Assembly (NCBI GenBank): GCA_937872175.1
Contig: CALMPI010000017.1
Span: forward strand, 62,001 to 126,000
From: an uncultured Flavobacteriales bacterium
GTDB taxonomy: Bacteria > Bacteroidota > Bacteroidia > Flavobacteriales_F > PHOS-HE28
Length of the DNA: 64,000 nt
Reading direction: 5' to 3'
The stretch's first letter is position 1. Each line of letters begins with the position of its first letter. A program made the position numbers and the translations under genes. Below the pieces are notes generated by a model. That model was not told the origin of the DNA and searched no databases. It was given only the letters and a program-made list of their open reading frames with translations. Shown here one piece after another: positions 13,256 through 32,654 of this stretch.

Positions 13256-13617
13256 CCCCGATCAGTGAACGAAGCCCGTGGATCCCGGATGCGGGCGGCG
13301 GGGTTGTGGATCCTTTTGCAGAGGGTTTGCCGGCCTGCTGTGCCGAGGATCCCAATGACCGAAGGATCGGCCGGTGTGCAGCCCGCCGGTACGCCGGCGC
13401 ACCCGGATCACCGCGCGCATGCGCTGGGCGTAACGCACCAAGGACAACACGGCGGTGACTTACGGCCTTGGCCTGCTCCAGGAGTTCGGTGCAAGCCTCA
13501 CGCGCTGATCGACCGGAGGTGCGGCCACCCGGATCGCGAGAGCGGAAGCGGATGCCGCATTCCGTGCGTCATCCGCCGAATACCCCGGAAACTCCACCGC
13601 CTTGTGGCCGTCGCTCG
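13256..13617. other. Intergenic region with dispersed repeat, no gene seen
   Basis: A GC-rich spacer after ribE. It contains copy A of a 76-bp dispersed repeat (13329-13404). The frames that remain open here are compositional and show no protein-like features. Confidence 0.5.
13329..13404 (+). repeat. 76-bp dispersed repeat, copy A
   Basis: Matches 32520-32595 at 65 of 76 positions, same orientation, no gaps. The core ACCGAAGGATCGGCC and the segment GGTACGCCGG are identical in both. It has short inverted repeats (GATC...GATC, GCCGG...CCGGC), so it can fold. It lies just outside the surface-protein region. Confidence 0.75.
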
Positions 13618-13650
13618 CCGGATCCTTGTTCCGAACGGTCCCGGATCCTT
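13618..13650 (+). promoter_or_regulatory. Direct repeat pair, possible LytTR operator
   Basis: Two copies of CCGGATCCTTG start at 13618 and 13641 (23-bp period), upstream of the LytTR regulator at 13718. The core equals that of the 21-bp-period repeats before 28113 and 31703. Autoregulation is inferred. Confidence 0.4.
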
Positions 13651-18668: not shown

Positions 18669-18728
18669 TACACGGTGAACTGTGGATCAAGTCCCGCGGG
18701 AACCCGGTTCGAGGTGGAATGATCCCGC

Positions 18729-18736
18729 GAACTTTG
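18729..18736 (+). promoter_or_regulatory. -7 box (GAACTTTG), 5 nt before ATG
   Basis: One mismatch to TAnnTTTG. It supports ATG 18742 for the giant adhesin and a leaderless mRNA. Confidence 0.45.
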
Positions 18737-18741
18737 GCCGG

Positions 18742-21700
18742 ATGTGGCGTTCCGCGTTCCTCCGCACCATTCTGGTGTTCGTGCTGCTCCTGGTCGGTGC
18801 GGCGAGGGAGGTGGAGGCGCAATGCAATGTGACGATCAACAACCCGGTGGTGGCGCCGTGTTTGGGCGATACACTGGCCCTTTCGGCATCGGCCAACGGC
18901 CAGAACGGACCGTTCATCTTCGCGTGGACCATCTCCGCTGGGTCCGGAGTGTTCTCCTCGACGAACACGTCCACCACGCTCTTCAGTCCCTCCACATCCG
19001 GAACGGTGACCGTGCAGGTGAGCGTAACGGACACCAATGGAACAGTTTGCGCCACGGACCTCCAGAGTTGGAATGTGACCAATGCCTCGGTGGCTTCGTT
19101 GACCTGCACGAACGCACCATCAGTGACCTTCGATGGCCTGACGACGTTCAGGAACTGTACGCCACAGAACCAGTTCCTGTTCAATTTCCAAGAGAACGGG
19201 TCCATCCTGGGCAACGCGCAGGTGACCATCGATTGGGGCGATGCGAGCCCGGTGTTCACCTCGAACGGAGCATGGGCACCGCAGGGGCACCTGTACTCGC
19301 CGCCGGGCCTGTACACCATCACCTACACGGTGGACGATGGCGTGTGCGAGGACACGCAGTTCTACAACGTGTTCCTTGGGGTGAATCCCGGTGCCCAGTT
19401 CGGCCGCCCCAACAACGCCCCGGTCTGTGACGGGGCCACGGTCGATTTCCTGATCACGCCGGACGCCACCAATGTGCCGGGCACCACATACACGGTGTAC
19501 TATGGTGATGGGTCGAGCGCGGTGTTCACCCACCCGCCGCCCGCCACGGTGAGCCACACGTACACGTCCAGTTCGTGCACCGGCGGGTCCTACACAGTGA
19601 CCTGTGGCGGCAGTCAGTTCCCGGTGGTGCCTGCGGCCAACACGTTCACCGCGTGCCTGTGCGTGGAGACCCCCTGCGGTGGGTTCCCGCCGACGGCGCC
19701 GAACATCATCGTGCACGAGGCGGCCGATGCCGGTTTCTCTGCTCCGACAACCGCATGCACCACGAGCGGGGTGACCTTCACCAGCACCAGCACCGGCGGC
19801 GTCATCGGGGCGCCCTGTGGCACGCCCTATCACACCTGGTCCATCACTGGTCCTGGCGCGTACACCCTTCAGTCGGGCAACCTGGGACCGTTCGGCAGCA
19901 CGGCCCTCTCGGTGCAGTTCCCGGTGCCCGGGGTGTACACCGTGTCATTGACGGCCGAGGGCGAGATCTGCCCTGCGGACACCTACGATCAGCAGCTCTG
20001 CATCGAGCCACCGTTGGTTCCCACCTTCGACACCACGCAGGTGGGCTTGTGCAACCCGGTGACGGTGAACCTGCAGAACACCACGGACCTGACGGACAAC
20101 TGCAGTGTACAGTGGGACTGGGTGGTGAGCGGCTCGGGCTTCTGCGGGGCCGCGGCCGCCTGGCAATGGACCAACGGCAATACCACGAGCGCATCGCCGA
20201 GCCTGCAGTTCACCGCGCCGGGCACCTACACCATCCGGCTGCGGGCATTGAACAGCTGCGGCTGGCAGCAGAGCGCGCCGGTCACCGTGACGGTGTTCGA
20301 TGACCCGCAGGTCCAGATGGGCGCCGCGCTCTCGCTCTGCGAAGGGGATGGGGCCAACCCCATAGCCACCTACACTACTTGCGGCACACCGATCACCAGC
20401 TACCTGTGGAGCATGCCCACGGCCACGCCCTCGAGCTCCAACCTGCCGCTCCCCGGTCCGGTGACGATCAACGCGAGCGGAACGATCTCCGTCACCGTGA
20501 CGAGCGTGTGTGGATCGGTGACGGCCAGCAACCCGGTCGTCGCTAACCCGGACCCACCGGCGAGCACGGTGCCGCCCGGGCCGATCTCCATCTGCCAGGG
20601 ACAGCCGCTCACCCTCGGCGCCACGAATGTGCCTGGTGCCACCTTCGTGTGGACCTCTCCCTTGGGCGTCACCTATGCCATGGATACGGTGGTGATCCCG
20701 GCCGCAGGACCGGCAGAGGACGGGCTGTGGACCGTGGTCGCGTTCCTGGGCGTGTGTGAGGGGCCGCCCGCCACAGTCGACGTGAACATCATCCTGGCAC
20801 CCGTGCTCGGCGTGGTGGCGAACCCATCGTCGATCTGCGTGGGTGACAGCAGCACGTTGGTCGCAGTGAACGCCACCAGCTACGCATGGTCCATCGGCAC
20901 CACGCCCGTGGGTACGGGCAGCACCTTGGTGGTGGCGCCGACAAGCACCACGATCTACACGGTGGAAGGTGATGTCGGTGGTTGCATCAGTGAGCTCGAT
21001 GTCACCGTCACCGTGAACCCGCTGCCCGTCGTGAACGCCGGCCCGGACCTCAGCCTCTGCGATCAACCCATGCCCGAAGTGCTGCAACCGGTGACCGCGG
21101 GCGGCACGTGGGGCGCACCGGTGGTGGGCGGCCAGTACACGCCCAATGGGCAGGGCGTGTTCGAGGTGGCCTACGGCATCACGGACCTCAATGGCTGCGT
21201 CAACAGCGACACCATCACCATCACCGTTGGTCCGCCTCCCGCGCCGGTCACCGCCGGTCCGGACACGCTCATCTGCCTCAACAGCGGCGACCTGCAATTG
21301 GTGGCCGACCAACCCGGCGGAACGTGGAGCAACAGCGTGTGGGTGAACAGCACGGGCGAGTTCACCCCGGGCGCGGTGTCCACGGAACTCGTGGTGTACA
21401 CGGTGGGCGTCGGCACCTGTGCGGTGGACGATACGGTGCAGGTGCAGGTGGTGCCCGGCGCGTCGGTGGATGCCGGGCTCGACGACCAGCTGTGCGTGAA
21501 CGACCCGGCGCTGCAGCTCGTGCCGAATCCGCCGGGCGGTACGTGGGGCGGCACTGGTGTGTCCCTTGCAGGTCTCTTCGATCCCGCACTGGCCCTGATC
21601 GGGCCCAACGTGCTCACCTACACCTTCCCTGATCCGAACGGCTGCATCGTGATCGACCAGCTCACCGTCCAAGTGGACCCGCTGCCTGTGCTCACCGTCA

Positions 21701-24700
21701 CGAGCGACACCACCTTCTGTGTATCGCCGATCGCGCAGCAGATCACGCATGCCCCGATCGGTGGCACCTGGAGCGGACCCAACGTGGATCCCGTGACCGG
21801 CCAGTACACGCCGGTGGCCACCACCCCCATCGGTTCGCCGGACGTGCTGGTGTACACCTACACCGACGGCAATGGTTGCACGAACACCGCCTCCGTCCAG
21901 GTGACGGTGATCGATCCGCCCTTCGTCGCCTTCGCGGGCAACGATACGGCGGCCTGCGTCGGCGATGCGCCCTTCCCGCTGGTGGGTGATCCACCGGGCG
22001 GCGACTGGAGCGGTTCGTTCGTGCTGCCGGGTTACGCCTTCGATCCCGCCGTGGTGGGCACCTATACGCTCACCTACACCGTCGGCACCGCCTCATGTGA
22101 AACGCAGGACCAGGTGGACATCACCGTGGACCCGCTGCCGCCCAGCTTCGCCGGCGCACCGCTCACGGTGTGCGTGTACGATCCCGTGCAGACGCTGCAA
22201 GGCACGCCCGCCGGTGGCTTGTGGGACCGGCCCAACACCTTCGACCCGGACACGATGCAGCTTGGGCCCACCACCTTCTGCTACACCTACACCGATCCGA
22301 CCACCGACTGCGACAGCACGCACTGCACCACCGTCACCGTGGAGCCTATCCCGGTGGCGGACTTCAGCCTGCCCGACAGCGCGTGCGTGAACACGCTGGT
22401 GAACTTCACCAACATCACCGCCTGCGGCTGCACCTGGACCTGGGACTTCGGCGACCTCAGCCCACCCAGCACGCAGCAGGATCCGCAGCACGCGTACGCC
22501 GCCGTCGGCCCATACACGATACAGCTGGTGGCCACCTCCACCGCCGGATGCAGCGACACCATCACGCACCCGTTGGTGATCACGGAGGCGCCCACCGCCC
22601 AGCTCACCTGGACCGTGGCCGATAGCTGCGGCGATGGCCTGGTGCAGGTCACCAACGACCTGGTGATGGCCAACACCACGCACACGTGGTGGGTGAACGG
22701 CGTGGTGGTGAGCAATGCGGTGCAGCCGGTCTCCTTCGCCCTGCCGGGCCCTTTGCTGGCCGACACGCTGTACACGCTGGTGTATGAACAGGCCAACTTC
22801 TGCGGCGCCGATCGTGATACGCTGCTGGTGACCCTGTACCCACTACCCGTGGCCTCCTTCGGCACCGACCAGCTGATCTACTGCCTGGCGGACACGGTCT
22901 TCATCGGCAACGACAGCTACGGCCTGGTGGACTCGGCCTTCTGGCAGCTCGGCGACGGCACCGTCAGTACCAACGGCTCGCCCACCTGGTTCCACCAGTA
23001 CGTGCAGGACAGCACCTGGACGATCACCCTGGAAGTGTACAACGAGTGCGGTGCGGACACCGCAAGCTGGAGCGTGACGGTGCTGCCCAACCAGGTGACG
23101 GCCTTCTTCAGCACCGACACGGTGATCGGCTGCGCCCCCCTCACCAGCACCTTCACCAACTTCAGCGTGGGCGACACGGCCAGCATCTGGTACTTCGGCG
23201 ATGCGAACAATACCACGAGCATCAGCACGAACACCGGCTTCACCTACACCGATCCGGGCACCTACACCGTGCAGCTGGTGGCCCTGGGCTGCGGGGTGGA
23301 CACGGCCACGCAGGTGATCGAGGTGCTGGCCCTGCCGGTGGTGGACGCGCTGAGCGACCCCACCGTGTGCCTGGGCGATGCGGTGAGCTTCAGCGCGAGC
23401 GGCGCTGGCCTCGTGGGTCTGCTGTGGTCCTTCGGCGACGGCAGCTTCGACTCGATCCCCAACCCCACGCACACTTACGCCAACGCCGGCACGTACAACG
23501 TGATCCTCACGGTGGTGAGCAACATCACGCTGTGCCCTTCGGCGGACACGATCCAGGTGGAGGTGGTGGAGGCGCCGGTGCTGGCCCTGAGCGTGGCCGA
23601 CACCGTGTTCTGCGTGCCCTTCGACCTCTCGCTCAGCTCGGCCGGCACCACGGGCAGCAACCTGAGCTATGTGTGGACGCTCGGCGGCGACACCGTGTCG
23701 TACAGCCCCAACCCGCTGCCGCAGACCATCACCGCAACGGGCGGCCAGCTGATCACCGTCACCGTGGAGGACCTGCTCACCGGCTGCAGGGACAGCACGG
23801 CCCTGACCGTGGTGGGCCTGGAGACGCCGGTGAGCGGCCTGCTGCTCGATCCCTACGACCCCTGCGGCGACCCCGCCCAACTGGTGGCCACCAGCACGAG
23901 CAGCCCGCCGCAGGCCACCCTGGCCTGGAGCGTCAACGGGCAGCTGGTGGGGCAGGGGCCCGTGCTCGCCACCGCCTACAGCACGCCCGGCACGCACACC
24001 CTGGCGCTGGTGGCCGAGCTGCCGGGCCCCTGCGCGGACACGGCCACCACGACCTTCACCCTGTTGGAGCGCCCGCTGGCCGGTTTCGACACCGGACCCG
24101 CCTGCCTGGGGCAGGCCATCCCCATCACCGACACCAGCAGCAACGCAGTGGCCTGGTGGTGGTACTTTAACGGGGCCTTCGTGGGCAATGATCCCGGCGG
24201 CAGCGGCATCGTGCCTTCCTTCCTGGGCAACGACACCATCGCGCTGGCGGTCACCAGTCCCGATGGCTGCCGCGACAGCACCTGGGTGGTGGTGGATGTG
24301 AACGCTCCACCGCTGGCCGAGCTGCTGGCCGAGGCGCAGGCCGATTGCGAGACCGTGCTGCTCACCGCCGCCTTCGCGCCGAACAGCACCTATGTGTGGT
24401 ACGTGAACGGCCAACCGTACAGTGAGGAGCGTTCCCCGCCCTACTACCTGCCGCCCGATGCCACGGACGACGTGGAGTTCACCCTGGTGGTCACGAACAC
24501 GGACAGCTGCAGCAGCACCGACATGGCCACGGTGTATCCGCCCACCTGCGTCAACGTGCCGAACGCCTTCACGGTGAACGGCGACGGCAACAACGAGCTC
24601 TTCTTCCCGGTGGTGTATCCGGCGGTGCGCTTCCGCGAGTTCCGGATCTTCAACCGCTGGGGCGAGGTGATCCATGAGTGCGCGGGCACCGTGGTGCCGT

Positions 24701-24819
24701 GGGACGGCATGGTGGCGGGCGTGCGCGCGCAGGACGGCGTGTACGTGTGGAAGCTGCGCTACAGCGACGGCAACAACAACGAGCTGGAGAAGGTGGGGCA
24801 CGTGACCTTGCTGCGATGA
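18742..24819 (+). CDS. Giant PKD/Ig-repeat adhesin with T9SS type B sorting domain
   Basis: 2025 residues. A signal peptide (MWRSAFLRTILVFVLLLVGA) starts at the ATG favoured by the -7 box. The body is repeats: PKD-type domains (IDWGDASP, WDFGDLSPP, WSFGDGSFDSI, HTYANAGTYNV) and a run of six Cys-GGTW modules between about residues 765 and 1210 (GGTWGA, GGTWSN, GGTWGG, GGTWSG, GGDWSG, GGLWDR). The end is a type B sorting domain (VPNAFTVNGDGNNELFF, FNRWGEVIH, DGVYVWKLRY). It is probably a long surface adhesin exported by T9SS. Its TGA overlaps the ATG of a histidine kinase gene. Confidence 0.85.
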   Translation: MWRSAFLRTILVFVLLLVGAAREVEAQCNVTINNPVVAPCLGDTLALSASANGQNGPFIFAWTISAGSGVFSSTNTSTTLFSPSTSGTVTVQVSVTDTNGTVCATDLQSWNVTNASVASLTCTNAPSVTFDGLTTFRNCTPQNQFLFNFQENGSILGNAQVTIDWGDASPVFTSNGAWAPQGHLYSPPGLYTITYTVDDGVCEDTQFYNVFLGVNPGAQFGRPNNAPVCDGATVDFLITPDATNVPGTTYTVYYGDGSSAVFTHPPPATVSHTYTSSSCTGGSYTVTCGGSQFPVVPAANTFTACLCVETPCGGFPPTAPNIIVHEAADAGFSAPTTACTTSGVTFTSTSTGGVIGAPCGTPYHTWSITGPGAYTLQSGNLGPFGSTALSVQFPVPGVYTVSLTAEGEICPADTYDQQLCIEPPLVPTFDTTQVGLCNPVTVNLQNTTDLTDNCSVQWDWVVSGSGFCGAAAAWQWTNGNTTSASPSLQFTAPGTYTIRLRALNSCGWQQSAPVTVTVFDDPQVQMGAALSLCEGDGANPIATYTTCGTPITSYLWSMPTATPSSSNLPLPGPVTINASGTISVTVTSVCGSVTASNPVVANPDPPASTVPPGPISICQGQPLTLGATNVPGATFVWTSPLGVTYAMDTVVIPAAGPAEDGLWTVVAFLGVCEGPPATVDVNIILAPVLGVVANPSSICVGDSSTLVAVNATSYAWSIGTTPVGTGSTLVVAPTSTTIYTVEGDVGGCISELDVTVTVNPLPVVNAGPDLSLCDQPMPEVLQPVTAGGTWGAPVVGGQYTPNGQGVFEVAYGITDLNGCVNSDTITITVGPPPAPVTAGPDTLICLNSGDLQLVADQPGGTWSNSVWVNSTGEFTPGAVSTELVVYTVGVGTCAVDDTVQVQVVPGASVDAGLDDQLCVNDPALQLVPNPPGGTWGGTGVSLAGLFDPALALIGPNVLTYTFPDPNGCIVIDQLTVQVDPLPVLTVTSDTTFCVSPIAQQITHAPIGGTWSGPNVDPVTGQYTPVATTPIGSPDVLVYTYTDGNGCTNTASVQVTVIDPPFVAFAGNDTAACVGDAPFPLVGDPPGGDWSGSFVLPGYAFDPAVVGTYTLTYTVGTASCETQDQVDITVDPLPPSFAGAPLTVCVYDPVQTLQGTPAGGLWDRPNTFDPDTMQLGPTTFCYTYTDPTTDCDSTHCTTVTVEPIPVADFSLPDSACVNTLVNFTNITACGCTWTWDFGDLSPPSTQQDPQHAYAAVGPYTIQLVATSTAGCSDTITHPLVITEAPTAQLTWTVADSCGDGLVQVTNDLVMANTTHTWWVNGVVVSNAVQPVSFALPGPLLADTLYTLVYEQANFCGADRDTLLVTLYPLPVASFGTDQLIYCLADTVFIGNDSYGLVDSAFWQLGDGTVSTNGSPTWFHQYVQDSTWTITLEVYNECGADTASWSVTVLPNQVTAFFSTDTVIGCAPLTSTFTNFSVGDTASIWYFGDANNTTSISTNTGFTYTDPGTYTVQLVALGCGVDTATQVIEVLALPVVDALSDPTVCLGDAVSFSASGAGLVGLLWSFGDGSFDSIPNPTHTYANAGTYNVILTVVSNITLCPSADTIQVEVVEAPVLALSVADTVFCVPFDLSLSSAGTTGSNLSYVWTLGGDTVSYSPNPLPQTITATGGQLITVTVEDLLTGCRDSTALTVVGLETPVSGLLLDPYDPCGDPAQLVATSTSSPPQATLAWSVNGQLVGQGPVLATAYSTPGTHTLALVAELPGPCADTATTTFTLLERPLAGFDTGPACLGQAIPITDTSSNAVAWWWYFNGAFVGNDPGGSGIVPSFLGNDTIALAVTSPDGCRDSTWVVVDVNAPPLAELLAEAQADCETVLLTAAFAPNSTYVWYVNGQPYSEERSPPYYLPPDATDDVEFTLVVTNTDSCSSTDMATVYPPTCVNVPNAFTVNGDGNNELFFPVVYPAVRFREFRIFNRWGEVIHECAGTVVPWDGMVAGVRAQDGVYVWKLRYSDGNNNELEKVGHVTLLR

Positions 24820-27134
24820 GGAGGGGGGCCTTGGTGCGATGGATGTTCGCCGGGGCGCTTTCGACCGCTGCGGTGGCATGCTCGATCACCGATCGATCGC
24901 GTGAGCCAGGGTCGACCGATCAGAAAAAAAACGCGGTCGATCCCGAACGCCTCGTTCTGGCCGACCCACGGGCCGCCTTCGCCCTGATCGACTCCCTGGA
25001 TCGCGAGGCGATGCGCATGTCGGACACGGACGCGCTTATCCTCGCACGGCTTTGGAGGGCGCGGTGTTCGGTGCTGAACGACCGGTCCGCCGAAGCATGT
25101 GATGCGTACCGCGCGGCGCTGGACCACGGTGCACGGGTACCACAGCGGACCGCTGTTGAGGTCGAGCACGCGAAGGCGTTGACCCGAGCGGGACGGTTCG
25201 CGGAGGCGGAGGCCCGTTTGGCTGAACTGGACACGGCGGCACGGAACAGGAACAACAGCATTGCGCACGTCGACGCGCTCAACGCACACGGTTCGCTCCT
25301 GCTTGCCCGGGCCAGGGCTGATGCCGGGGCGGCGCGGTACGCACAGGCCCTGGCGCTCGCCGACCGGATGAAGGTGGACACGGTGACACGGATCGCACTG
25401 CTGCTCGACCAGTGCGCAGGATACGCCTCCGCGACGCAGTACGATAGCCTGCTGCACCTTGCCTATGCGGTGCGCGGCCTTGCGCGGGCCACGCACGACA
25501 CACTGGCGGAGCTCACCGCCGAGCTCGACATCGGCCTGGTGCACGCGAACACGGCGCGGGACTATGCGGTGGCGATGGACCACACCACACGCGCCGCCGT
25601 GCTGGCCCGCGCCATGGGGATCGAGCGGCACCGGTTGCTCGCCGAGCACCGGCTCGCGTACATCGGGTGGGATATCCTGAACGACCAGGAGGTGCATGCG
25701 CGCTGGACGAGAACGCTGCAGGAGGCAGAGCTCGGAGGGTTCGATCAGATCGCCGTGCAGTCGGGCATCGGGTTGGGCATGTTCCTCATGAGCCGGGACA
25801 GTCTGCGGCTATCCGCATGGGGAGTGCCCTACGCGGTGCGGTTCGACACGGCGCGCGCATTGATCGCCATGGCCACGGACCGAGCGGAGCGTCTCGGCAG
25901 TGAGGAACTGCTCAATGATTGTCTGAGCGCAGCCGCTTCGGTGGAGAACTACGCTGGTGATCCGCGCGCCTCGATCCGGATCCAGGAGCACCAGCTGGCC
26001 CTTGCACGAGCAGGTGGACGTGTCCGACAACAGGTCAACGCGTACCAGGGGATCGGCTCCAACCTGATCCAGCTGCAGGAATGGCGGAAGGCCATTGCCA
26101 TGCTGGACAGTGGATCGGTGCTGGCCCGGGCGCATGGCATGCTGCAATCCATGAACACCCTGCTGTACCGGCTCTTCTACTGCCATGAGCGGTTGGGTGA
26201 TCATGCCACGGCGCTGAACTATGTGCTGCAGCGCGACACCCTGCGCGACCGCATCGGCGGGGTTGATATGGCCGCGCGGATGGGAGAGCAGCTGGCCCGC
26301 CACGCCGCACAGCTGGACAGCCTCGCCCACGTTCAGCAGCTCGCTCTGGAGCGCGCCGAGGCCCAGGCCCGCATCGACCGCCAACGCACGCGCACCGTGG
26401 CCGCCTTGGGCGGAGGAGCCGTGTTGCTCATGGGTGGCGCTGTGGCGTTCGCGATGGACCGCCGCCGCCGGCAGGCCCGCTTCGCCCAGCAGGCCGCCGA
26501 GCTGGAGCGCGAGGCCGCCCGCTTCGAGACGCAGGCGCTGCGCAGCCAGATGAACCCGCACTTCATCTTCAACGCGCTCAACTCCATCGCCGGCTATGTG
26601 CAGGGCAACGACCCCGACCGTGCGCAGAGCTTCCTGGCCCGCTTCGCCAAGCTGATGCGGGCGGTGCTGGAGAACAGCCGCTTCGCCGAGGTGCCGCTGG
26701 CCCGGGACCTGGAGGTGCTGCGCGCCTACATGGAGCTGGAGCGCGTGCGTGCCCAGGGGAAGTTCAGCTACACCATCGCCGTGGCCCCCGACCTGGACGC
26801 GGAGGCCGTGCTGGTGCCGCCGCTGCTGGCGCAGCCCTTCGTGGAGAACGCCATCTGGCACGGGGTGGCGGGCAAGCAGGGCGATGGGCACATCGCGGTG
26901 CACGTGGAACAGGCCGACGGTCAATTGCGCATCCGGGTGGAGGACGACGGCGTGGGCCGTGCGCAGCAGCGCAGCGCGGTGAGCAAGGAGAAGACCAGCC
27001 TGGGCACGGCCATCACGCGCAGCCGGCTGGACCTGGTGGAGAAGCAGAAGGGCGCCCCGGCGGGCTTCCGCTACGTGGAGGTGCCGGTGGGCACGCGCGT
27101 GGAGATCCACCTGCCGCTGGAAATGGCGGCGTAA
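24816..27134 (+). CDS. LytS/YehU-type sensor histidine kinase with TPR-like sensor region
   Basis: 772 residues. The start overlaps the adhesin stop (ATGA). The N-terminus has a lipobox-like AVACS (Cys22). A helical TPR-like region (about 60-500) precedes one membrane segment (about 528-548) and a short coiled coil. The His_kinase domain has QMNPHFIFNALNSI with phosphoacceptor His582, and a HATPase domain follows with PFVENAIWHG and a DDGVGRAQQ G-box. This is the kinase class that partners LytTR regulators; one lies 89 nt downstream. A combined lipoprotein signal and inner-membrane helix is unusual. The signal sensed is unknown. Confidence 0.87.
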   Translation: MRRGALVRWMFAGALSTAAVACSITDRSREPGSTDQKKNAVDPERLVLADPRAAFALIDSLDREAMRMSDTDALILARLWRARCSVLNDRSAEACDAYRAALDHGARVPQRTAVEVEHAKALTRAGRFAEAEARLAELDTAARNRNNSIAHVDALNAHGSLLLARARADAGAARYAQALALADRMKVDTVTRIALLLDQCAGYASATQYDSLLHLAYAVRGLARATHDTLAELTAELDIGLVHANTARDYAVAMDHTTRAAVLARAMGIERHRLLAEHRLAYIGWDILNDQEVHARWTRTLQEAELGGFDQIAVQSGIGLGMFLMSRDSLRLSAWGVPYAVRFDTARALIAMATDRAERLGSEELLNDCLSAAASVENYAGDPRASIRIQEHQLALARAGGRVRQQVNAYQGIGSNLIQLQEWRKAIAMLDSGSVLARAHGMLQSMNTLLYRLFYCHERLGDHATALNYVLQRDTLRDRIGGVDMAARMGEQLARHAAQLDSLAHVQQLALERAEAQARIDRQRTRTVAALGGGAVLLMGGAVAFAMDRRRRQARFAQQAAELEREAARFETQALRSQMNPHFIFNALNSIAGYVQGNDPDRAQSFLARFAKLMRAVLENSRFAEVPLARDLEVLRAYMELERVRAQGKFSYTIAVAPDLDAEAVLVPPLLAQPFVENAIWHGVAGKQGDGHIAVHVEQADGQLRIRVEDDGVGRAQQRSAVSKEKTSLGTAITRSRLDLVEKQKGAPAGFRYVEVPVGTRVEIHLPLEMAA

Positions 27135-27187: not shown

Positions 27188-27195
27188 TAGCTTCG
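27188..27195 (+). promoter_or_regulatory. -7 box (TAGCTTCG) for the LytTR regulator
   Basis: One mismatch to TAnnTTTG, 28 nt before ATG 27224. It gives the regulator its own promoter besides read-through from the kinase. Confidence 0.4.
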
Positions 27196-27223: not shown

Positions 27224-27979
27224 ATGTCCAGCAACGCCCCCACCGCCGTCATCATTGACGATGAGGCCATCTGCATCACGGCGCTCCAGGCCATGCTCAC
27301 GCGCCGGCATCCGGAGCTGGTGCTGGTGGGCACCGCCGCGGACGTGCCTTCCGGCGTGACGTTGGTGAAGGACAAGCGGCCGGACCTGCTCTTCCTGGAC
27401 GTGGAACTGGGCGACATGACGGGCTTCGACCTGTTGAAGGCCATCGCCCCCCTGCGGCCGCAGGTGATCTTCACCACGGCCCACGAGAGCTACGCCGTGA
27501 AGGCGATCCGCTTCAACGCGCTCGACTACCTGTTGAAGCCCATCGACCCCGAGGAGCTGGACGACGCGGTGAACAAGGCCGTGCGCGAGCGGGGCGGTCA
27601 TGCCGCTTCACCGGACCGCATCGCGCCGCTGCTGGGCACCCTGATGAGCGACCGCCAGCTGGCGCTGCCCGATTCGGGCGGCCTGGTGGTGGTGCATCTG
27701 GACGACATCCTGTACTGCACCAGCGACAACAACTACACTTCGGTGCACGTGCGGGGCGACAAGAAGCCGACGGTGGTGAGCCGTCCGCTGAGCGAGTTCG
27801 ACGCCTTCCTCGGCGGGCAGGGCTTCGTGCGCATCCACCAGAGCCACCTGATCAACCGCAAGCACATCCGCCGCTATGTGAAGGGTGAGGGTGGCGAGGT
27901 GATCATGAGCGATGGCGCCAACCTGCCCGTGAGCCGCCGGCAGAAGGCCGAGCTGATGGAGGTGTTGGAGCGCTTGTAG
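27224..27979 (+). CDS. LytTR-family response regulator, paralogue 2
   Basis: 251 residues. The receiver domain has Asp59 (LLFLDVELGDMTGFDLL) and the switch Lys in YLLKPI. The LytTR domain (about 150-251) has ILYCTSDNNYTSVHV and GFVRIHQSHLINRKHIRRY, and ends VSRRQKAELMEVLERL. It is the likely cognate partner of the LytS-type kinase just upstream. The strong match to the regulator at 13718 in the DNA-binding half suggests the two recognise similar operators. The promoter of the next gene carries such a candidate operator. Confidence 0.9.
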   Translation: MSSNAPTAVIIDDEAICITALQAMLTRRHPELVLVGTAADVPSGVTLVKDKRPDLLFLDVELGDMTGFDLLKAIAPLRPQVIFTTAHESYAVKAIRFNALDYLLKPIDPEELDDAVNKAVRERGGHAASPDRIAPLLGTLMSDRQLALPDSGGLVVVHLDDILYCTSDNNYTSVHVRGDKKPTVVSRPLSEFDAFLGGQGFVRIHQSHLINRKHIRRYVKGEGGEVIMSDGANLPVSRRQKAELMEVLERL

Positions 27980-28003: not shown

Positions 28004-28034
28004 CCGGATCCTCGGTGCGCACCGCCGGATCCTC
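28004..28034 (+). promoter_or_regulatory. Candidate LytTR operator: CCGGATCCTC pair, 21-bp period
   Basis: CCGGATCCTC occurs at 28004 and 28025. Exactly 34 nt later comes TTTTG (28069), then CCGTCAC; the whole spacing is repeated before 31703. Two direct repeats about two helical turns apart are the known LytTR binding geometry (for example AgrA, AlgR-type sites). Confidence 0.6.
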
Positions 28035-28065
28035 GATCCCCATGGGCCGGGCCCTGCGGTCACTG

Positions 28066-28073
28066 GACTTTTG
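28066..28073 (+). promoter_or_regulatory. -7 box (GACTTTTG), shared promoter module
   Basis: One mismatch to TAnnTTTG (first T is G), the same deviation as in the twin promoter at 31654-31661. The ATG follows 39 nt after the box. No -33 element is seen, which suits an activator-dependent promoter. Confidence 0.5.
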
Positions 28074-28112
28074 GTCCGTCACCGCACGATCAACCCGTCA
28101 ACCCGACCCGCC

Positions 28113-28916
28113 ATGAACACCATCGCCCGACCCATCGGCACCCGCCTCGCCTGTGTCCTTTCGATCCTGTGGCTGCTGGGCAGCACCTCGGTCCTTGCGC
28201 AGGCCGAAGGCCTGGATGCGCACATCCGGCAGCTGGACCGCCTGATCGCCCAGGCCGCGGCCGAGCAGGACTACGCCGCCGCCGCCGGCCTCCAACGCGA
28301 CCGCGCCAACTGGGTCGCCCTGCAGGAGGCCATCGCGCACAACGATGCCGCCCGCATCCTGTCCCTGCAACAGGCGCTGGCCAACCCATATGTGTACACC
28401 GCCGCCGGCGCCGCACAGCGCCCGGCGGCGCCCGCACCCACCACCGGCGGGCCCGAGTTCCTGCACCAGGTGTACACCCAGGAGGCCGATGGCAGCTACC
28501 GGCAGCTGGAGAAGGAGGAGGCCAGCTCCGCGTCCTCTGGCGGTGGTTATGGCGGTTTCGGCGGTCGGGTGTCCTCGAAGAAGATCCCCGGCGACCGTTC
28601 CAACGTGCGCTTCGCGGCCGGCGCGCTCCCGCGGTTCGTGGTGAGGACCTACCCGGGCCAGGACCCCTCCGACCTCATCGAGCTGGTGCGCTTCGAGGTG
28701 CGTGGCGCCCGCAAGGACCGCTACGTGGACATGAGCAAGAGCAGCCACGCCTTCTACCACCACAGCAGCAGCGAGGTCACCGACAACCGCGTCCGCATCA
28801 CGTTCACCCACCTCGGCGACCAGGTGTACGAGATCGGGACGGACGCACCGCTGCCCGCCGGCGAATACGCCTTCATGAACGGGCAGAAGGTATTCGCCTT
28901 TGGCGTGAACGAGTGA
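28113..28916 (+). CDS. Secreted hypothetical protein, LytTR-module regulated
   Basis: 267 residues. It has a signal peptide (ending SVLAQ), then a helical segment (LDRLIAQAAAEQDYAAAAGL) resembling a UVR-type paired helix. A Gly/Ser-rich linker (SSASSGGGYGGFGG) leads to a beta-rich C-terminal domain of about 95 residues (LPRFVVRTYPGQDPSDLIEL, then EYAFMNGQKVFAFGVNE). I recognise the last part only as a recurrent Bacteroidota domain without an assigned role. The start is set by the signal peptide; an upstream TTG would fall inside the -7 region. Its promoter carries the paired CCGGATCCTC motif. Confidence 0.65.
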   Translation: MNTIARPIGTRLACVLSILWLLGSTSVLAQAEGLDAHIRQLDRLIAQAAAEQDYAAAAGLQRDRANWVALQEAIAHNDAARILSLQQALANPYVYTAAGAAQRPAAPAPTTGGPEFLHQVYTQEADGSYRQLEKEEASSASSGGGYGGFGGRVSSKKIPGDRSNVRFAAGALPRFVVRTYPGQDPSDLIELVRFEVRGARKDRYVDMSKSSHAFYHHSSSEVTDNRVRITFTHLGDQVYEIGTDAPLPAGEYAFMNGQKVFAFGVNE

Positions 28917-28940
28917 GGAGAGGAACGCATGGATCCATCC

Positions 28941-28963
28941 GGAAGCCCGATGGCCGGGCTTCC
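28941..28963 (+). terminator. Hairpin after 28113 gene
   Basis: GGAAGCCC and GGGCTTCC form an 8-bp stem with a 7-nt loop, 25 nt after the stop codon. There is no T-tract. Confidence 0.35.
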
Positions 28964-28983
28964 ACCAACACCGACCACGAACC

Positions 28984-29532
28984 ATGAGCACACTTCGACA
29001 CCTCGCCAGGAGCGCTGCCTTCCCGTTCACGGCATCGTCCTCCACCGCACAGCATCAGCGTGTGGGTCGGCCGGAGCGTGCCACCTCCGGATCGTGGGAC
29101 GCGCTCGGGCGATACACCCATGACCGCGACGCCCAAGGCCGCGTCACGGAGCTCAGCATGGCCCGCAAGGACCCTTGGAGCGGTGATCGGATCCCCTTCG
29201 CGCGGTTGAACATCACGTACACCGCCCGCGGGCACGAAGCCTCCTGGACCTGCCGGATCACTTATGATGCCGCACCGACCGGCATGCCGGGACCGACGGG
29301 GGCGCTCGTGCTGCTCGCCCATCCCGACCCGGCGACCGACCCGGTGATGCTGCCCGACCTCGGCGCAGGCGTCGTGGTGGACCCGATCGCCCCGGATGGA
29401 CGGATGATCACCGGCAAGCGCACGGAGGCGCGGGGTGTGCTGGATATCCGCGACCTTGCGCCCGGCCACTATGTGGCCAGCTTCGTCACAACGACCGGCT
29501 CATCCGCCACTACCACCCTCCTCAAACACTGA
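28984..29532 (+). CDS. Hypothetical protein with T9SS type A-like tail, possibly degenerate
   Basis: 182 residues. The middle (HDRDAQGRVTEL, ARLNITYTARG) resembles the YD-like repeats of secreted Bacteroidota proteins. The last 35 residues (DIRDLAPGHYVASFVTTTG) look like the end of a type A sorting domain. There is no convincing signal peptide, so the protein as read could not reach T9SS. It may be a truncated relic or the start may be elsewhere. The stop is 4 nt before the beta-helix gene, which suggests it is still part of that operon. Confidence 0.5.
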   Translation: MSTLRHLARSAAFPFTASSSTAQHQRVGRPERATSGSWDALGRYTHDRDAQGRVTELSMARKDPWSGDRIPFARLNITYTARGHEASWTCRITYDAAPTGMPGPTGALVLLAHPDPATDPVMLPDLGAGVVVDPIAPDGRMITGKRTEARGVLDIRDLAPGHYVASFVTTTGSSATTTLLKH

Positions 29533-29536
29533 TCCC

Positions 29537-30544
29537 ATGCGACCTGTCCTGCACCTCCTCTTCCTGCTGCTGTGTCCGGCCATGCTCCATGCCCGGATCC
29601 TGCGGGTGAACAACAATGCCGTGCTCGCCACCACCTGCATCACCTGCTACCCGTCGCTTCAGAACGCCTTGTCGGCAGCGCAGGATGGTGACACGATCCA
29701 TATGGAAGGTTCCAGCGCCGCTTACGGTTCCGGCACCGTCACGGTGCCGAACCTCGTCATCATCGGTCCGGGCTACAAGCTGTCCGGCGCGGGAAGCAAC
29801 CCGGACCTGCAGGCCAATACCTGGCCCGCCACCATCGCTGGCACCTTGACGTTCGGGGCCGGCTCGCAGGGAGGCACGGTCATGGGGATCCGGTTCGCGG
29901 GCACCAACGCCGCGTTGGACATCACGTCCACATCGAACATCACCGTGCGCAGGAACTTCTTCGAGATCACCGAGATCACCCTGGCCGGCACCACCACCAA
30001 CGTGCTGATCGCGGAGAACTATGCCTACCGCATCACCCAGAACGTCAACGCACAGACGATCAACAACCTCACCGTGCGCAACAATGTGTTCACCAACACC
30101 CTTTCGCTCAACGATAGCGGCGACCAGATGGCGGGGCTGGTGGTGGTGCACAACACCTTCACCCATGCCGGCACACAGGCCGTGCGCGATGCCGAAGTGG
30201 CGTACAACGTGTTCGTTCAAGGCACGATCGCCGGCAGCAACAACACCGTGCATGACAACCTGGTCACGCAGGTGATCCCCGGCTTCCCGGACAACCTCGT
30301 AGTGCCCATGGCCAACGTGGGGATCCCCGTGGTGGGTGCTTCGGACGACGCGCAATGGGACATCCCTGCCCATCCGGTCTATGCACCGGGCGGAGCGGAT
30401 GCCTATGGCATTTTCAGCGGCATCAGCCCCTACCGCCTGAGCGGCATCCCAGGCACACCTACGATCTATGCGCTCAGCTCCACGGTGAACGCGTTGCCGG
30501 GCGGCCAGGTGCAGGTGACCCTGAGCACACGTGCCAACCCCTGA
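29537..30544 (+). CDS. Secreted right-handed beta-helix protein (cassette 2)
   Basis: 335 residues. The signal peptide (MRPVLHLLFLLLCPAMLHA) is followed by YPSLQNALSAAQDGDTIHME, the usual entry of right-handed beta-helix proteins. Repeating strands follow (ITVRRNFFEITEI, NLTVRNNVFTNTL, LVVVHNTFTHAG). No catalytic site is evident. It is the positional and architectural counterpart of 14544-15623 and sits 4 nt upstream of the EYWFD-repeat gene. No sorting domain is visible, so release or retention in the periplasm is possible. Confidence 0.7.
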   Translation: MRPVLHLLFLLLCPAMLHARILRVNNNAVLATTCITCYPSLQNALSAAQDGDTIHMEGSSAAYGSGTVTVPNLVIIGPGYKLSGAGSNPDLQANTWPATIAGTLTFGAGSQGGTVMGIRFAGTNAALDITSTSNITVRRNFFEITEITLAGTTTNVLIAENYAYRITQNVNAQTINNLTVRNNVFTNTLSLNDSGDQMAGLVVVHNTFTHAGTQAVRDAEVAYNVFVQGTIAGSNNTVHDNLVTQVIPGFPDNLVVPMANVGIPVVGASDDAQWDIPAHPVYAPGGADAYGIFSGISPYRLSGIPGTPTIYALSSTVNALPGGQVQVTLSTRANP

Positions 30545-30548
30545 TCGC

Positions 30549-31547
30549 ATGCGGCGACTCCTGTTCGTTCTTGCGCTCGCGCACCCGCCATGCGATGCCT
30601 TCGCGCAGCTCGTCGTCCACGGGGAATATTGGATCGACGAGGACCTCGGCTTCGGTCAGAACCAGTCGTTCCTCGTTCCGGCCACCGCGGATACGACCCT
30701 GACGTTGAACCTGGACCTCAGCGGTCGCCCACCCGGCCACCACCTGCTCGGGTTGCGTACGCGCGATGCCGGGGGACGATGGGGCCATACCCAGTTCACG
30801 CCGGTGCTGATCACCGAGGCGCCGAGCGTTCCGGACCTGGACCGCACCGAGGCGTTCCTCAACAACGACCCTGGCTTCGGTGCAGGAGAGGTGCTGTGGG
30901 CGGGCGGTGTGCAGGATGTGGCGGACACCATGGTGCTGCCCGACCTGTCCACGGCGCTCATCGGCCACAACACGCTTTTCCTGCGCACGCGTTCGGCCGA
31001 TGGCCATTGGGGGCATACGAACACCGTCCCTGTTCTGATCATCCCGGCGCCCCCCACTGCAGCGGTGGATGCCGTGGAGGCTTTCGTGCTCGACGGTGGC
31101 CCCGACCCCGGCTTCGGCCAGGCCCAGCCGTTCACCGGCTTTATCGCGGCGGTCGACCTGGTCGACACGCTCACCTCCGACGCGCCCTTCGCGCTCACCA
31201 CCGGGCAGCGCTTGGCGCTCCGCAGCCACGACGATCAAGGCCGATGGGGGCACACCAATTTCATCGATTCGATCATCGTGGAGTTCCACAACGACCAGGG
31301 GTCGCTATGGAACGCGGTGGGCTTATCCGTGCATCCGAACCCGTTCACGGAGACCCTCACCCTGCGGTCCGATGATCCGCGGCCCGTGCGGGTCGTGCTC
31401 TACGGGCCGACGGGCGGGAAGGTGTTCGACCGGATGCTGACCGGAGACTCCTCCATCGACTTGCATGGGATGGCCAGTGGCGTGTACACCGCGTTCTTCT
31501 GGCAGGAGGCCGCCCTGCTGCATCGGGTGACCCTCATCAAGCGATGA
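30549..31547 (+). CDS. EYWFD-repeat T9SS type A sorted protein (cassette 2)
   Basis: 332 residues. The signal peptide is MRRLLFVLALAHPPCDAFA. Three repeat units begin at EYWIDEDLGFGQ, EAFLNNDPGFGAG and EAFVLDGGPDPGFG, and end at LRTRDAGGRWGH, LRTRSADGHWGH and LRSHDDQGRWGH. A type A sorting domain (VHPNPFTETLTL to LIKR) ends the protein. The three-unit plan equals that of 15627-16877, though the intervening Ig-like segment is missing. The start 4 nt after the beta-helix stop indicates one operon. Function unknown. Confidence 0.75.
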   Translation: MRRLLFVLALAHPPCDAFAQLVVHGEYWIDEDLGFGQNQSFLVPATADTTLTLNLDLSGRPPGHHLLGLRTRDAGGRWGHTQFTPVLITEAPSVPDLDRTEAFLNNDPGFGAGEVLWAGGVQDVADTMVLPDLSTALIGHNTLFLRTRSADGHWGHTNTVPVLIIPAPPTAAVDAVEAFVLDGGPDPGFGQAQPFTGFIAAVDLVDTLTSDAPFALTTGQRLALRSHDDQGRWGHTNFIDSIIVEFHNDQGSLWNAVGLSVHPNPFTETLTLRSDDPRPVRVVLYGPTGGKVFDRMLTGDSSIDLHGMASGVYTAFFWQEAALLHRVTLIKR

Positions 31548-31591
31548 AGGGCCCTCGGCCACAGGGGCCAAGGTGACGCTTCGAGGTCCCA

Positions 31592-31622
31592 CCGGATCCT
31601 CACCACCCGCCGCCGGATCCTC
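31592..31622 (+). promoter_or_regulatory. Candidate LytTR operator: CCGGATCCTC pair, 21-bp period
   Basis: CCGGATCCTC at 31592 and 31613, then 34 nt to TTTTG at 31657. Spacing is identical to the module at 28004. Confidence 0.6.
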
Positions 31623-31653
31623 AGCCGGGCAGGGAATGCGCGTACTGCCAGGG

Positions 31654-31661
31654 GAGTTTTG
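31654..31661 (+). promoter_or_regulatory. -7 box (GAGTTTTG), shared promoter module
   Basis: Same deviation from TAnnTTTG as the twin at 28066; both continue into CCGTCAC. The ATG lies 41 nt downstream. Confidence 0.5.
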
Positions 31662-31702
31662 ACCCGTCACGAACGACGAACCACACGAACACCCTGGTCA
31701 TC

Positions 31703-32347
31703 ATGAACACGCAAGCAACCTTCCGGCTCCTTCTCATCGGGTTCACCCTTTGCCTGGCCATCAACCGCGTGCAGGCGCAGGACGCGGATCCCGCACCGGC
31801 CTTCGGCAAAGGCAACGTCGCCCTCAACGCCGGCATCGGCCTGGGCGGTGTGCGCCCCGGCTACTACGGCAGCTACAACGACAGTTACAGCAACAGCCCC
31901 ACGTTCTGCCTCAGCGCGGAGGGGGGTGTGGCCAAGGCAGGCCCGGGCGTCATCGGTGTGGGCGGCTTCCTGTCCCACCGCTGGACGCGTCACGTGGATG
32001 AGGACAGCTACGGCAGCGTCACGTACACCTTCGACGAGCGCTGGACCCGCACCACCATCGGTGCGCGGGTGGCCTGGCATCTCAGCGAGTACGTCCCGGC
32101 CCACAATCTGGACCTCTACGCCGGCGTGATGCTCGGATACGCCATTGTGGGCTACCGCAACGAAAGCACCCGCACGGTGAACGGCGAGACCACCACCTAT
32201 GCCGACACCAAGCCGCCCCGCAAGGGCTACGGCGATTGGAGCACCTTCGTGGGCGCCCGCTACCTCTTCACCCGCAACGTGGGCGCCTATGCCGAACTGG
32301 GCTACGGTGTCAGCATCATCAACCTCGGCGCGACCTTCCGTTTCTGA
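31703..32347 (+). CDS. Outer-membrane beta-barrel protein
   Basis: 214 residues. A signal peptide (ending RVQAQ) is followed by alternating amphipathic strands (NVALNAGIGLGGVRPG, YAGVMLGYAIVGYRN, GAYAELGYGVSIINLG) and a terminal aromatic pair region ending FRF, as in small OmpA/OmpW-like barrels. It is preceded by the same operator and promoter module as 28113, so both are likely under one LytTR regulator. A strong hairpin follows the stop. Confidence 0.75.
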   Translation: MNTQATFRLLLIGFTLCLAINRVQAQDADPAPAFGKGNVALNAGIGLGGVRPGYYGSYNDSYSNSPTFCLSAEGGVAKAGPGVIGVGGFLSHRWTRHVDEDSYGSVTYTFDERWTRTTIGARVAWHLSEYVPAHNLDLYAGVMLGYAIVGYRNESTRTVNGETTTYADTKPPRKGYGDWSTFVGARYLFTRNVGAYAELGYGVSIINLGATFRF

Positions 32348-32519: not shown

Positions 32520-32595
32520 GCCGGCCTGGTGTGTGGAAGATCCCGATCACCGAAGGATCGGCCGAAATGCAGCCGGCCGGTACGCCGGCCCACCC
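32520..32595 (+). repeat. 76-bp dispersed repeat, copy B
   Basis: Same orientation as copy A (13329-13404), 65 of 76 identical. Together they bracket the surface-protein region. Confidence 0.75.
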
Positions 32596-32654
32596 ACCGG
32601 TCCGGAGCCCGAACAACCCGGCACCCTGTCCGTTCCTTCCAGCGGACGCCACGC

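Follow-up and report, generated by a model that had tools for sequence, protein, structure and literature searches.

Paired LytTR-type repeats in a fixed promoter frame beside a two-component system of an uncultured Flavobacteriales bacterium

Introduction

Two promoters in a 64,000-nt stretch of DNA from an uncultured Flavobacteriales bacterium (the window, to which positions refer unless a contig or locus is named) carry the same paired direct repeat, which raises the question of which protein recognises it and to what effect. LytTR regulators are common, but they share no general binding sequence, and none of the papers searched describes an operator of a two-component LytTR regulator in Bacteroidota. 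The closest named relatives of the organism are metagenome assemblies of unclassified Flavobacteriales and Bacteroidetes. From comparative sequence analysis we consider, with a probability of about 0.85, that both sites serve as operators for 27224, the LytTR response regulator encoded next to them, whose partner would be the kinase 24816, and that they would activate genes for exported and outer-membrane proteins.

Results

Layout of the two promoters

The layout CCGGATCCTC-N11-CCGGATCCTC-N34-TTTTG-N2-CCGTCAC precedes the genes at 28113 and 31703, and is exact in both. The distal and proximal half-sites (all CCGGATCCTC, + strand) occupy 28004–28013 and 28025–28034 in promoter 1, and 31592–31601 and 31613–31622 in promoter 2. 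Half-sites of 10 bp and a spacer of 11 bp give a period of 21 bp in both promoters, in agreement with the LytTR-type operator (direct repeats of 9–11 bp, 10–13 bp apart). TTTTG follows at offset +65 (28069 and 31657), 34 nt past the second repeat, and CCGTCAC at +72 (28076–28082 and 31664–31670, + strand), with the ATG at +109 (28113) or +111 (31703), 39 or 41 nt after TTTTG. Between these fixed points the two promoters are identical at 5/11 positions of the repeat spacer and 14/34 positions of the 34-nt stretch. An earlier, sequence-only reading of this DNA had described twin promoters with identical operator geometry, and all of its positions were found exact.

With up to 3 mismatches the repeat pair has 2 matches in the window, against a mean of 0.06 in shuffled sequences. 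The genome scan proposed in the same reading returned, for the 4.3-Mb genome, exact pairs only in promoters 1 and 2, and the many coding-region matches that it had named as a refutation were absent. Looser matches genome-wide are at the level of a reversed-pattern control, and the downstream block GGASTTTTGRYCCGTCAC is matched, with up to 2 mismatches, only by promoters 1 and 2. A match at 24642 was rejected as an operator, as it falls within the upstream coding region.

The repeats could also be a mobile or structural intergenic element, copied around without a regulator, and similar intergenic stretches, possibly a repeated element, are present in the window at 13340–13405 and 32540–32600 (GACCGAAGGATCGGCCG...TGCAGCCNGCCGGTACGCCGGCNCACCC; no inverted repeat detected). 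This origin is very unlikely, given that the exact pairs are just two genome-wide, that the two promoters diverge between their fixed points, and that the copies are found ahead of genes, in sense orientation and with a −7 box.

Genes around the promoters

The gene that stops 24 bp before the first half-site of promoter 1 (27224–27979, + strand) encodes a LytTR response regulator, with a receiver domain (PF00072 Response_reg, 5.6e-21) and a C-terminal LytTR domain (PF04397, 4.4e-19); the sole match in a sequence search of the PDB was a distantly related structure of a LytTR domain, 3d6w (E 8.6e-4). A LytS-type histidine kinase, its presumed partner, is encoded at 24816–27134 (+ strand; His_kinase and HATPase_c). 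The ATG of the kinase gene and the stop of the gene before it (18682–24819) overlap. The product of this preceding gene, of 2045 aa, has a T9SS type B sorting domain, and because of the overlap the T9SS cargo, kinase and regulator genes may form one operon.

Target 1 of promoter 1 (28113–28916, + strand) is an exported protein of 267 aa without any Pfam or NCBIfam family. Its homologues come from this genus and from one related family, and a fold search gave no convincing match (best E 3.5e-3, TM about 0.2). Judging from the short gap, the next gene, for a 182-aa protein (28984–29532, + strand), probably belongs to the same transcription unit. The genes for an exported protein of 335 aa with a weak NosD-like match (29537–30544, + strand) and for a 332-aa protein with a weak T9SS type A sorting tail (30549–31547, + strand) come next. 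Target 2, behind promoter 2 (31703–32347, + strand), is an exported protein of 214 aa with no family match, and a probable outer-membrane beta-barrel.

Conservation of the operators

In front of the orthologues of gene 28113 in three related genomes (G026, G023 and G025) both half-sites are letter-identical, the distal one being kept at 10/10 positions, and the distance to TTTTG is unchanged. Between this genome (G000) and G025 the half-sites of promoter 1 agree at 10/10 and 10/10 positions, whereas the 34-nt stretch agrees at only 12/34, which bears out the earlier proposal that the spacing is conserved and does not reflect a recent copy. Promoter 2, with its distal half-site, is also retained in G026 and G025.

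A scan of 45 genomes of the genus with the composite CCGVATYCTC-N11-CCGVATYCTC-N35-TTTG (A-type, up to 3 mismatches) gave 24 matches, against 1 for the reversed pattern; these genomes had also served to refine the consensus, and the sites of the four closest species are orthologous and not independent. Of the 24, 20 look like real promoters. Behind A-type promoters lie at least seven genes, unrelated to each other, whose products are exported or envelope proteins, the targets across species being the 267-aa protein, the barrel, and NosD-like, CsgG-like, small lipoprotein-like and T9SS-tailed proteins. In G004 and G005, homologues of the 335-aa NosD-like protein are encoded immediately downstream of A-type promoters, and in G043 the promoter stands before a gene that itself encodes a response regulator. 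CsgG/LpoB-like proteins are encoded behind A-type promoters in three species (L161 in G042, L159 in G004, and L200 in G012, the last assigned via similarity to the G004 protein), which may point to a function of the regulon at the outer membrane or in secretion. The sites of G010 have the form CCGAATTCTC-N11-CCGGATCCTC, with TTTG likewise at +35; a GGATCC palindrome, suggested as a requirement by CCGAATTCTC, is broken by CCGCATTCTC and CCGGATTCTC. Outside the genus, A-type operators occur only as 2-mismatch matches, in 6 of the genomes searched.

The spacing also holds when it is left out of the selection. Among operators at regulator loci chosen by the repeat alone (up to 1 mismatch, n = 15), TTTG is found at +35 in 14/15 and TTCG in the remaining 1/15. 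The background of TTTG is 0.0018 per position, and the binomial probability for the +35 placement is 5e-38, a value that overstates independence because several of the promoters are orthologous.

The regulator of the A-type operators

Orthologues of 27224 are present in 11 genomes (59–100% identity), every one of which has A-type sites (in G012 at 2 mismatches, with one pair at the end of a contig). G034 is the other genome with a strict site, and there the contig breaks off inside a regulator gene of the 27224 type (C-terminus). With this partial gene counted, A-type operators and a 27224 orthologue co-occur in 12/12 versus 0/33 genomes (Fisher 3e-11), which is partly plain synteny, since many sites adjoin the regulator gene. 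Additional sites in G042, G004 and G012 lie 2–6 kb off or on another contig. In G043 the sites are weaker, and of the regulator gene just the N-terminal part is present at the end of a contig, too little to place it in a clade.

The sequence-only reading had pointed to the LytTR binding geometry and to two LytTR genes in the region. The LytTR reading is supported by the geometry, by the 12/12 versus 0/33 distribution and by a sister clade with the same frame and a half-site that matches published LytTR repeats (see below), and it is 27224 that is implicated, not the second gene, 13718. Ownership by 13718, or by both LytTR genes, might be expected from the nesting of the 13718 clade within the 27224 clade, from the large part of the DNA-binding domain that the two regulators have in common, and from a CCGGATCCTT pair upstream of 13718 in this genome. 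It is nevertheless unlikely: G033 has the 13718 orthologue and no A-type sites, whereas G004, G005, G010, G011, G012, G017 and G042 have the sites and a 27224 orthologue with no 13718-type gene at the thresholds used. The pair upstream of 13718 (13618/13641, window 13618–13650) has a 23-bp period, has no TTTG at +35 and is missing from the G023 orthologue (in G026 the gene start is uncertain), and was rejected as a third promoter. We regard 13718 as the less likely owner because strict sites occur only in genomes with a 27224 orthologue, one cut-off gene counted. About 18 LytTR domains or genes are present in this genome, and another of them could bind the operators; the adjacent regulator 27224 is the owner that we favour. 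An occurrence of TCGGATCCTC at 27193, before gene 27224 itself, was rejected as a half-site, being missing from three orthologues.

A sister promoter class in the same frame

A scan that asked only for the geometry, a repeat of any 10 bp with a 21-bp period and NANNTTTG behind it, revealed further half-sites near paralogous regulators. The main one, CCACTTGCTC (RCCACTTGCTC, B-type), has 49 genus matches in the same N11/N35 frame, against 2 in controls, and its sites adjoin regulators that form a clade of their own (support 100/100). In G000, CCACTTGCTC pairs lie at C49:36198, C49:36877, C49:2346, C42:32832, C12:6281 and C12:40181, and one of its B-type promoters is upstream of a paralogous regulator on C42. 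Two single promoters in the same frame, each near a further LytTR paralogue (L188 10349, − strand, half-sites GCATAAGTGG/ACATAACTGG; L187 8301, + strand, half-sites CCATCCACAC/CCGTCCGCTC), suggest that additional half-site variants exist.

The alignment of 20 A-type and 24 B-type promoters gives a common half-site, CCR-CC-N-N-W-T-N-CTC, and the position of the −7 element is invariant across both sets. A is found at −11 in 37/44 promoters and TTTG/TTCG in 44/44, the B-type set having been pre-filtered for TTTG/TTCG, and a CCRTCRA-like sequence recurs around the predicted transcription start in many promoters of both types. The A and B half-sites differ at positions 3 (G/A), 5 (A/T) and 7 (Y/G), and the residues that separate the regulator clades include 206 (Q/H), 212 (R/V), 217 and 234–235 (LP/VA); we infer that these residues may be linked to those bases. 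On balance, we lean towards one invariant chassis (half-site, N11, half-site, N31, NANNTTTG) serving at least two paralogous LytTR regulators, in which a few half-site bases, read by a few clade-differing residues, would separate the signals, and which would offer a natural mutant series for the LytTR recognition code.

Promoter elements and proposed mechanism

The box 35 nt past the operator fits the Bacteroidota sigma-A −7 element, being NASTTTTG-like and at a fixed position. In Flavobacterium psychrophilum the TAnnTTTG −7 box spans −12 to −5 (PMC9723704), and with TTTG taken to end at −5, as in that study, the distal half-site would span −74 to −65 and the proximal one −53 to −44. The predicted −7 elements are GACTTTTG in promoter 1 (28066–28073, + strand), which matches TAnnTTTG save for the first T, and GAGTTTTG in promoter 2 (31654–31661, + strand). 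Transcription is predicted to start at about 28078 and about 31666, respectively, with CCGTCAC around the predicted start in both promoters. The first T of TAnnTTTG is not kept, being usually C or G, and no conserved TTG was found for a −33 box among the 44 A- and B-type promoters, where a weak GCW at −37 to −35 is present in the B-type only.

The proximal half-site ends at the predicted −44, just upstream of the −35/−33 region. LytTR repressors do exist, as in the case of CoxC, whose operator overlaps the −35 box (PMC11347149), and the repeats might be operators of such a repressor and not of an activator. This is very unlikely, since the operator, ending at about −44, takes the LytTR activator position upstream of that region, a good −33 TTG is lacking, and the −7 box follows at a spacing that does not vary by a single base, as one would predict if the regulator touched polymerase. 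Activation is most likely the role of the operators, because of their position and of the LytTR activator descriptions and repeats in PMC6193735. In the proposed mechanism, the kinase 24816 would phosphorylate the regulator 27224, and two LytTR domains would occupy both half-sites in tandem, on one DNA face and two turns apart. Bound just upstream of the −35/−33 region, 27224 would recruit RNA polymerase to a promoter with a good −7 box and without a good −33 TTG, and so turn on the neighbouring genes for exported and outer-membrane proteins.

Discussion

The view that these sites form an operator–promoter family of a two-component LytTR system, of a known kind, the LytTR activator promoter, is well supported in silico. 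What is surprising is that paralogous regulators with different recognition bases share one rigid frame. The promoters, about 44 in some 20 genomes, comprise two half-sites, belonging to two clades of regulators, in a single fixed frame. They make possible a geometry-based prediction of targets for uncharacterised LytTR systems in this group, and let the choice of bases by residues be probed.

The promoters have A at −11 and TTTG/TTCG at the place expected for the Bacteroidota sigma-A promoter (PMC9723704), but the first T is seldom kept and a good −33 TTG is lacking, as in an activator-dependent promoter. LytTR activators are described as using direct repeats 11–13 bp apart, with a marked preference for a position 10 bp upstream of −35 and with low sequence conservation of the repeats (PMC6193735). 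The promoters of LytTR Regulatory System (LRS) operons, S. pneumoniae spr1731/1730 among them, have such paired direct repeats about 10 bp upstream of −35, and keep the geometry while the sequence varies; for S. pneumoniae the repeat ACCACTTGC is listed (PMC6193735). The B-type core RCCACTTGC is identical to ACCACTTGC, whereas the A-type half-site differs, and the frame is here fixed at N11 and at N35 to a Bacteroidota −7 box. In an LRS the operon of the LytTR regulator encodes an inhibitory membrane protein in place of a kinase, whereas here a response regulator lies beside a His_kinase/HATPase_c kinase, which sets the present system apart from the LRS.

In the same phylum, the LRS-like promoters of B. 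thetaiotaomicron and B. ovatus have repeats starting with ACCGG/TCCGG, an 11-bp spacer and TAnnTTTG just downstream, as here; in B. thetaiotaomicron the repeats are TCCGGTATTCA/ACCGGAAATCA, before TATCTTTG (PMC6193735, Table 3). Their repeats are, however, of 11 bp with a 22-bp period, about 38 nt from TTTG, and their regulator is transmembrane, while the period and distance are 21 and 35 nt here. The A-type RCCGGATCCTC resembles ACCGGAAATCA without equalling it, in a LytTR family that has no single consensus. The YpdB operator at yhjX of E. coli (PMC4847170) differs in its half-site, GGCATTTCAT, and in its enterobacterial sigma-70 promoter, but it combines, as here, a LytTR response regulator and a LytS-type kinase with a pair of 10-bp direct repeats.
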